From NCBI GenBank assembly GCA_945836915.1, contig CAMAMO010000002.1, forward strand, positions 1 to 43,159: DNA of 43,159 nt, read 5' to 3'. Shown here piece after piece: positions 21,194 through 21,967 of the stretch (positions are counted from its first letter, which is position 1; each line of letters opens with the position of its first letter). Source of the stretch: an uncultured Mediterranea sp. (GTDB lineage Bacteria; Bacteroidota; Bacteroidia; Bacteroidales; Bacteroidaceae). The notes under the pieces were generated by a model. It was given only the letters and a program-made list of their open reading frames with translations. It was not told where the DNA came from and did no database searches. Made by a program: the position numbers and the translations under genes.

Positions 21194-21241
21194 ATTCATC
21201 CTGCATCTTATATCCAAATGGGTATAGGATGCGGGATGAAT
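21194..21241 (+). repeat. Long inverted repeat / RNA hairpin downstream of GH36 gene
   Basis: 22-bp stem ATTCATCCTGCATCTTATATCC / GGGTATAGGATGCGGGATGAAT with AAAT loop; fully paired on the plus-strand RNA using three G.U pairs. Confidence 0.8.
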
Positions 21242-21370
21242 TGTATTATGGTTTGCCATAGCGTCTGGTGCCTCCCTTGAACCCCTCTGATGGGGCGGCC
21301 CACGGAGACGTCGGGTCTGGTTCATACAATGCTTATCTGTTAGGCTCATTCGTTCTTCCTCCGCTTCAGG

Positions 21371-21491
21371 TCTAATCTAACTCTAATCTTCCTCTAACGT
21401 TTCTCTAACGATTCTCTACTCCGGAATTAGAGGAAGATTAGAACAACTTGGGAGGAACTTGGGAGTTACCTTAGACTTACTTTAGCGCAAC
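21371..21491. repeat. Degenerate 11-nt-period tandem array
   Basis: Units: TCTAATCTAAC TCTAATCTTCC TCTAACGTTTC TCTAACGATTC TCTACTCCGGA ATTAGAGGAAG ATTAGAACAAC TTGGGAGGAAC TTGGGAGTTAC CTTAGACTTAC TTTAGCGCAAC with no indels; weaker units TGTTAGGCTCA/TTCGTTCTTCC/TCCGCTTCAGG may extend it to 21338. Confidence 0.8.
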
Positions 21492-21530
21492 GAATCCTGA
21501 GCCGGGTAGCGAACTACCCCTTTCAAGCTG

Positions 21531-21647
21531 TAAAGATACAACAGGCAAAATAGGCGGTTTACACTTACTAACAGATAGTTACAGATAAAGACACAGCTCT
21601 CCTTTTTTCCATAAAGGGGAGTTTCCCGCTGTGATGCTGTATCTTTA
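21531..21647. repeat. Short element bounded by 10-bp inverted repeats
   Basis: TAAAGATACA (21531-21540) ... TGTATCTTTA (21638-21647), with nested hairpin CACAGC...GCTGTG (21592-21633). Confidence 0.5.
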
Positions 21648-21936
21648 ATGTAAATTATTTACATTGTCGCTAAGAGGAGCCTGCCGTTGTAGAGTTTGTA
21701 GCGCAGCTGGGCAAAACGCTTGAAAATAGGTTGGGCGAATCCTGAATCATCTTGTCTTGGTTGGTGGGTTCCACCTGTACCTTAATCACCTCTTTGTAGA
21801 AGAAGGGTTGGCCTGTTAAATCGATTTTCTCTGTGAAAGTCTTTCTTGTAGTCAGCGCCATAGCGCTAATGGCGCTAACTCCCCTCATTTTTGTACTGCA
21901 TCCACTCGCTTTCTCTGCCATTAAGGCGGAGAAACC

Positions 21937-21967
21937 TTTGTATTTTGATGGCAAATCATTATCTTTG
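21937..21967 (+). promoter_or_regulatory. Candidate Bacteroidetes promoter for the radical SAM gene
   Basis: TTTG 21937-21940, 19-nt spacer, TATCTTTG 21960-21967. Confidence 0.55.

Follow-up and report, generated by a model that had tools for sequence, protein, structure and literature searches.

The array of 11-nt units at 21371-21491 of the window (the whole stretch of 43,159 nt that was analysed) is one copy of a dispersed repeat, named family A here. With high confidence, we describe family A as a lineage-restricted, dispersed, non-coding and quasi-palindromic intergenic element of ~121 bp, sometimes longer, with arms made of 11-nt units and located mostly at the 3' ends of genes or between convergent genes. 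As a part of this identity, unit spacing is very probably selected while the linkers drift, and arrays lengthen or shorten only by whole 11-nt units. Our overall interpretation, to which we assign a probability of roughly 0.5, is that of a REP/BIME-like or BrickBuilt-like intergenic element, in which helical spacing is selected, most likely so that proteins can bind to phased sites at the ends of genes.

A periodic array with two opposed arms

Read directly from the sequence, positions 21371-21491 divide into eleven 11-mers without indels between units, exactly as the sequence-only reading had claimed. The self-match at lag 11 is 0.627 vs ~0.26 at the neighbouring lags 10 and 12. The period proposed by that reading is thus significant (z 8.5), since none of 2,000 dinucleotide-preserving shuffles scored as high (p < 0.0005, and the same for the highest value at any lag from 2 to 44). 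The signals at lags 22 and 33 are significant as well, and the lag-11 signal is the strongest of any segment in the 43-kb window; because the units are divergent, TRF reports the array as three small rows. Stop codons interrupt all six frames on both strands, which bears out the non-coding status suggested earlier, and Rfam returned no match to a known structured RNA at the gathering score. Two further candidates were rejected: a CRISPR array, as 11-nt units with a 5-nt core are too short and the arms are oppositely oriented, and a phage origin, as the flanked array had no match in phage records and its 19-nt repeat had no exact copy in viral contigs.

The units are arranged around a dyad (Table 1), and the family A model matches the window at 21369-21488 on the + strand, the length and register of the core element being kept among copies of three species. 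Complementarity between the arms is highest with the centre at 21423, and further peaks occur only at ±11, ±22 and ±33. Watson-Crick pairing amounts to ~47-60% at offsets 0, ±11, -22 and -33, is lower at +22 and +33, and stays at ~25% at typical offsets other than multiples of 11; therefore, the arms can pair in any register displaced by a multiple of 11. Through the 16-nt perfect inverted repeat, units 2-3 pair with units 6-7. Right-arm units 8-9 carry TTGGGA, replaced in other species by TTCGGA or TATTGA with the register unchanged.

The three weaker units suspected at 21338-21370 fared less well, as their sequence is not conserved among copies; nevertheless, the sequence would allow a part of them (21343-21354) to pair with 21489-21503. 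In this possible outer stem, the partners would be AACGAA at 21489-21494 and TGAGCC at 21498-21503. An outer inverted repeat, TATCTGTTAG at 21334-21343 and CTAACAGATA at 21568-21577, was considered as the ends of the element and rejected, being absent from other copies. The window also contains a 13-nt inverted pair, TAAAGATACAACA/TGCTGTATCTTTA, at 21531-21543 and 21635-21647, 3' of the array.

Table 1. Coordinates of family A features in the window and example sites of two other array families of the same genome.
Feature	Position	Strand	Basis
Core element (family A), two opposed arms of 11-nt units	21369-21491	+	11 units read directly; 29-copy alignment
Left arm, five units, inward TCTAA core (TCTAAnnnnnn)	21371-21421	+	Column entropy, 29 copies
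Dyad centre, ~3 nt	21422-21424	.	Arm complementarity peak at 21423
Right arm, six inverted units, TTAGA core or derived form	21425-21491	+	Sequence and 29-copy alignment
Left half of 16-nt perfect inverted repeat, TCTAATCTTCCTCTAA	21382-21397	+	
Right half of 16-nt perfect inverted repeat, TTAGAGGAAGATTAGA	21427-21442	+	
Possible outer stem, 5' side, GGCTCATTCGTT	21343-21354	+	Read from sequence, locus-specific
Terminator-like hairpin, separate from the repeat, between upstream GH36 gene and element	21194-21241	+	
22-nt family (GAATGCTTGCATTTCATTTCTG), example sites	L073:5010-5068; L074:8667-8729; L085:1-120		
11-nt palindromic family (CTTAGCATCCC), example sites	L009:1095-1190; L082:18387-18449; L085:15444-15516		

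Distribution of family A

The genome carrying the window (2.05 Mb in 204 contigs, 79% complete) holds about 17 dispersed copies (at least 15) with 81-88% identity, truncated ones included, lying in both orientations. A first search of 100 related genomes yielded no homologue of the array, and a targeted search recovered homologues in two species of the same genus, G110 (71-77%) and G107 (64-74%). When a sequence model built from 29 copies was run against 160 genomes of the genus, the own genome, G110 and G107 gave 22 to 24 matches each, a number that includes reverse-strand or partial matches of one site; G160 had a single clear relic, and elsewhere the matches were only weak. Essentially no family A was found in G171, the nearest relative tested by protein (glycerate kinase 85% identical). 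Overall, family A is present in about 13 to 22 or more copies per genome in three related species.

Beyond the arms, the flanks of own-genome copies are not alike, and no leader or tail with terminal inverted repeats was found among them; in G110, the outer arm sequence is common to some copies. Neither terminal repeats nor a target duplication were seen at family A copies. PF01797 (Y1_Tnp) was absent from the own genome, at its 79% completeness, and from G110, with a partial match only in G107. A REP element driven by a RAYT was therefore rejected, there being no credible Y1 transposase in the own genome or G110.

Genomic placement

Counting copies with both neighbours resolved and taking genes from simple ORF calls, we found convergent neighbours at 16 of 29 copies vs 62 of 411 intergenic regions (15.1%; P 6.7e-7), while divergent neighbours were rare (2/29 vs 21% of intergenic regions). 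The right neighbour of the window copy (21670-21954, 94 aa, no Pfam match) is a doubtful gene; without this copy, the convergent bias has a P of 2.5e-6.

Several sites are shared between species. The element lies 3' of asd in both the own genome (L003) and G107 (L181), in the same orientation and with equal length; the two copies are 71% identical, the encoded asd proteins are 94% identical, and in both genomes a separate terminator-like hairpin of asd precedes the element. The elements of L008 and L186 adjoin the same CYTH gene and differ by one unit, and those of L002 and L168 have an ABC-ATPase neighbour in common with the element in opposite orientation. Copies at shared sites speak for old maintenance, being 71% identical and still in register. 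The convergent junction of glycerate kinase and DUF308 is occupied by family A and a 22-nt array in the own genome, and in G110 and G107 it is ~30 nt long and empty. This difference represents a gain or a loss, as the empty site could have arisen by loss. In G171 (L153), an unrelated ~22-nt array (GCAACTGAAAYGAGTACATTGGC) lies ~100-330 nt beyond the stop codon of glycerate kinase.

Spacing is conserved while the linkers vary

Compared with the consensus of their species, 32 full-length copies from three species differ by 329 substitutions over 3,838 columns, whereas indels number only three (+11, -11 and -11); these are raw counts, not scaled to a neutral indel rate of these genomes. MAFFT aligned 29 copies from the three species over 123 columns with zero gaps, although these copies had been picked without unit-number changes from a collection made by similarity searches, which favour ungapped matches. 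Over 29 copies, the TCTAA core columns have an entropy of about 0, and the linkers reach 0.5-1.4 bits. Units vary with position inside a copy, yet match at equal position between copies; therefore, they are not being homogenised. As the length changes always amount to one 11-base unit, the spacing seems to be preserved, and the fact that units 8-9 stay in register though unable to pair with TCTAA favours a need for spacing beyond base pairing. In a more distant relative (locus L166 of G191), the spacing of the right arm is irregular.

The central proposal of the earlier reading, that selection acts on the spacing and that the array is no product of recent slippage, passed both refutation tests named with it: the autocorrelation is significant, and the homologues keep the 11-nt register, all three indels being of unit size. 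In this respect the sequence-only reading is supported; the inverted arms, the dispersed repeat and the genus-wide periods of 11 and 22 had escaped it.

A DNA-level or an RNA-level element

How might such an element work? We tentatively prefer phased protein binding to the DNA over an RNA hairpin, because the arms show no within-copy covariation at register 0 and a moderate one at -11, where the alignment-wide count is inflated by relatedness. Action as DNA has, in our estimate, somewhat less than an even chance. Each TCTAA/TTAGA core would be a contact site, one per helical turn, and a dimeric or cooperative DNA-binding protein would occupy a single face of the helix to the left and right of the dyad. 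Candidate binders might be a nucleoid-associated protein, a topoisomerase or a protein of the ribbon-helix-helix type. Bound in this way, the element may benefit the cell as a platform between converging transcription units, where it would deal with supercoiling, prevent read-through or delimit domains, by analogy with the roles proposed for REP/BIME elements. A point against such phasing is that 11.0 bp slightly exceeds the 10.5-bp repeat of B-DNA, so that the sites would drift by about half a turn per ten units unless the DNA is underwound.

It is less likely, though worth considering, that transcription from either side yields an RNA whose arms fold back on each other as one long hairpin, interrupted regularly by internal loops and making one A-form turn (11 bp) per unit; such an RNA might conceivably stabilise 3' ends or terminate transcription in both directions, or be a target of an RNase III-type enzyme. 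The window copy folds with a z of -2.9 on the + strand and -2.2 on the - strand, and most copies fold better than shuffles on both strands (z mostly ~-2 to -8, lowest -8.6). Convergent placement and arm complementarity limited to multiples of 11 point the same way, as does the excess of G-T over A-C at the best-paired registers. In the inner stem at register -11, compensatory changes gave 35 both-sided cells vs 16.7 in shuffles, an alignment-wide count inflated by relatedness; permuting the arms within species gave a z of 3.1 at this register (p ~0.003, with ten core registers tested). However, when arms were swapped between copies of one species, the main register 0 showed no within-copy covariation, and in the own-species alignment 0 of 34 predicted pairs covary. 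A hairpin in a single register was thus not obtained by covariation, register -11 alone being moderately supported. Moreover, units 8-9 of the right arm keep their register despite lost pairing. The internal loops of an RNA tolerate indels, so strict spacing would not be expected. No U-tract follows the element, and a simple intrinsic terminator was rejected, as the array contains no G+C-rich stem with a T-run and asd has its own separate hairpin upstream of its copy. The RNA-like folding and the arm covariation at -11 fit an RNA or a cruciform just as well.

A selfish or neutral repeat

A selfish or neutral repeat, namely a MITE-like or BrickBuilt-like minisatellite spread by a recombinase or template switching and persisting where harmless, seems to us improbable, as does its corollary that the 11-nt register merely reflects the mode of unit duplication and deletion. 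Such a repeat would account for the dispersal in both orientations within a small clade, the empty glycerate kinase/DUF308 junction in G110 and G107, the gains and losses of whole units and the presence of several unrelated array families within one genome, and it has precedents in PINSR (PMC4755523) and BrickBuilt (PMC4596501). On the other hand, neutral decay should have left many indels of other sizes beside the 329 substitutions, and the copies at shared sites, old and 71% identical, have their register intact. Units that are alike by position among copies rather than homogenised are also difficult to reconcile with it, as is the lack of terminal repeats, of a target duplication and, in the own genome and G110, of a credible Y1 transposase. 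Finally, a chance or composition artefact or a coding repeat, for which we see no argument, is contradicted by the shuffles, dozens of homologous copies and stops in six frames, and can be discarded.

Other arrays with periods of 11 and its multiples

A survey of periods, covering 443 kb of the own genome and 840 kb of same-genus genomes in 20-kb stretches, showed that 29 of 62 non-coding tandem arrays have a period of 11, 22, 33 or 44, compared with 5 of 57 coding ones (p 4e-6). The sequences of these non-coding arrays are mostly unrelated. In other families of the order (360 kb), 3 of 12 arrays had such periods, too few to distinguish. It is tempting to suppose a genus-wide class of intergenic arrays with a conserved period (11 nt and its multiples) and lineage-specific sequence, in which some factor or process measures helical phase rather than sequence, although we consider this rather unlikely at present.

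Two other dispersed families of the own genome are exemplified in Table 1. The one with 22-nt units (GAATGCTTGCATTTCATTTCTG) occurs at ~20 places, often at contig ends, which helps explain the fragmented assemblies; the one with 11-nt palindromic units (CTTAGCATCCC) occurs at ~10 places. At L009, arrays of three families lie inside ~800 bp. Other Bacteroidales MAGs (L061-L063, L065-L067) carry short 11-nt arrays that start with AAATGGGA and consist of ACTTGGGAGGA units, the latter being the unit of right-arm units 8-9 in the window. The complete 6.4-Mb genome of a relative, G057, has a dispersed family of self-complementary 22-nt units (AAAGATGGCATCTTTT; L097:12406) at a dozen or so places, and in G040 a long near-perfect 23-nt array (CCGTACTGTAAGTTCGACCGTTG; L131:8228-8650) lies between convergent ORFs.

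Comparison with known systems

ParR/parC centromeres and PhoB/OmpR-type boxes also consist of direct repeats spaced 11 bp apart, to which the protein binds cooperatively along one side of the helix; they are single regulatory or partition sites beside the gene of the binding protein. Family A differs from such phased operator arrays in that the chromosome carries many copies of it, placed at the ends of genes, and in that its arms oppose each other. No literature on 11- or 22-nt intergenic arrays in this group was found among open-licence papers.

REP/BIME elements are dispersed extragenic palindromes with species-restricted sequence, often located between convergent genes; they are recognised by a 20-40 nt stem-loop, a GTAG/CGTC tag, a Y1 transposase (RAYT/TnpA-REP) and binding by gyrase, IHF or Pol I (PMC1525189, PMC3733652, PMC2817692). 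Family A resembles them as a multicopy, dispersed extragenic palindrome with convergent-gene placement. Unlike their palindrome of 20-40 nt, it extends over ~121 nt of 11-nt units in strict register, has ~13-22 copies instead of hundreds and comes without a credible Y1 (RAYT) transposase; no conserved end tag of the GTAG/CGTC type is shared in the 29-copy alignment.

The nearest described minisatellite element is BrickBuilt, a MITE/minisatellite of Porphyromonas gingivalis dispersed over intergenic regions in 19 copies per genome, with 23-nt direct repeats in variable number, a leader, a tail, terminal inverted repeats and some indels (PMC4596501). It belongs to the same order and, as in family A, a minisatellite core is dispersed intergenically; family A differs in its 11-nt units, two opposed arms and near-fixed unit number, with no terminal repeats seen. 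PINSR of Prevotella is a lineage-restricted intergenic repeat of ~190 bp with 177-184 copies, no coding capacity and no terminal inverted repeats, its sites being largely kept between strains (PMC4755523). Compared by description only, it is similar to family A in size and intergenic location and has no described internal period.

If confirmed, family A would allow a clean test of whether helical phase can by itself be a signal under selection in the intergenic DNA of bacteria. It would also point to a factor that binds these arrays, or to a mechanism that duplicates them, in a large Bacteroidales lineage. Sequence is the usual basis for describing dispersed repeats of bacteria, whereas the property conserved here is a length.
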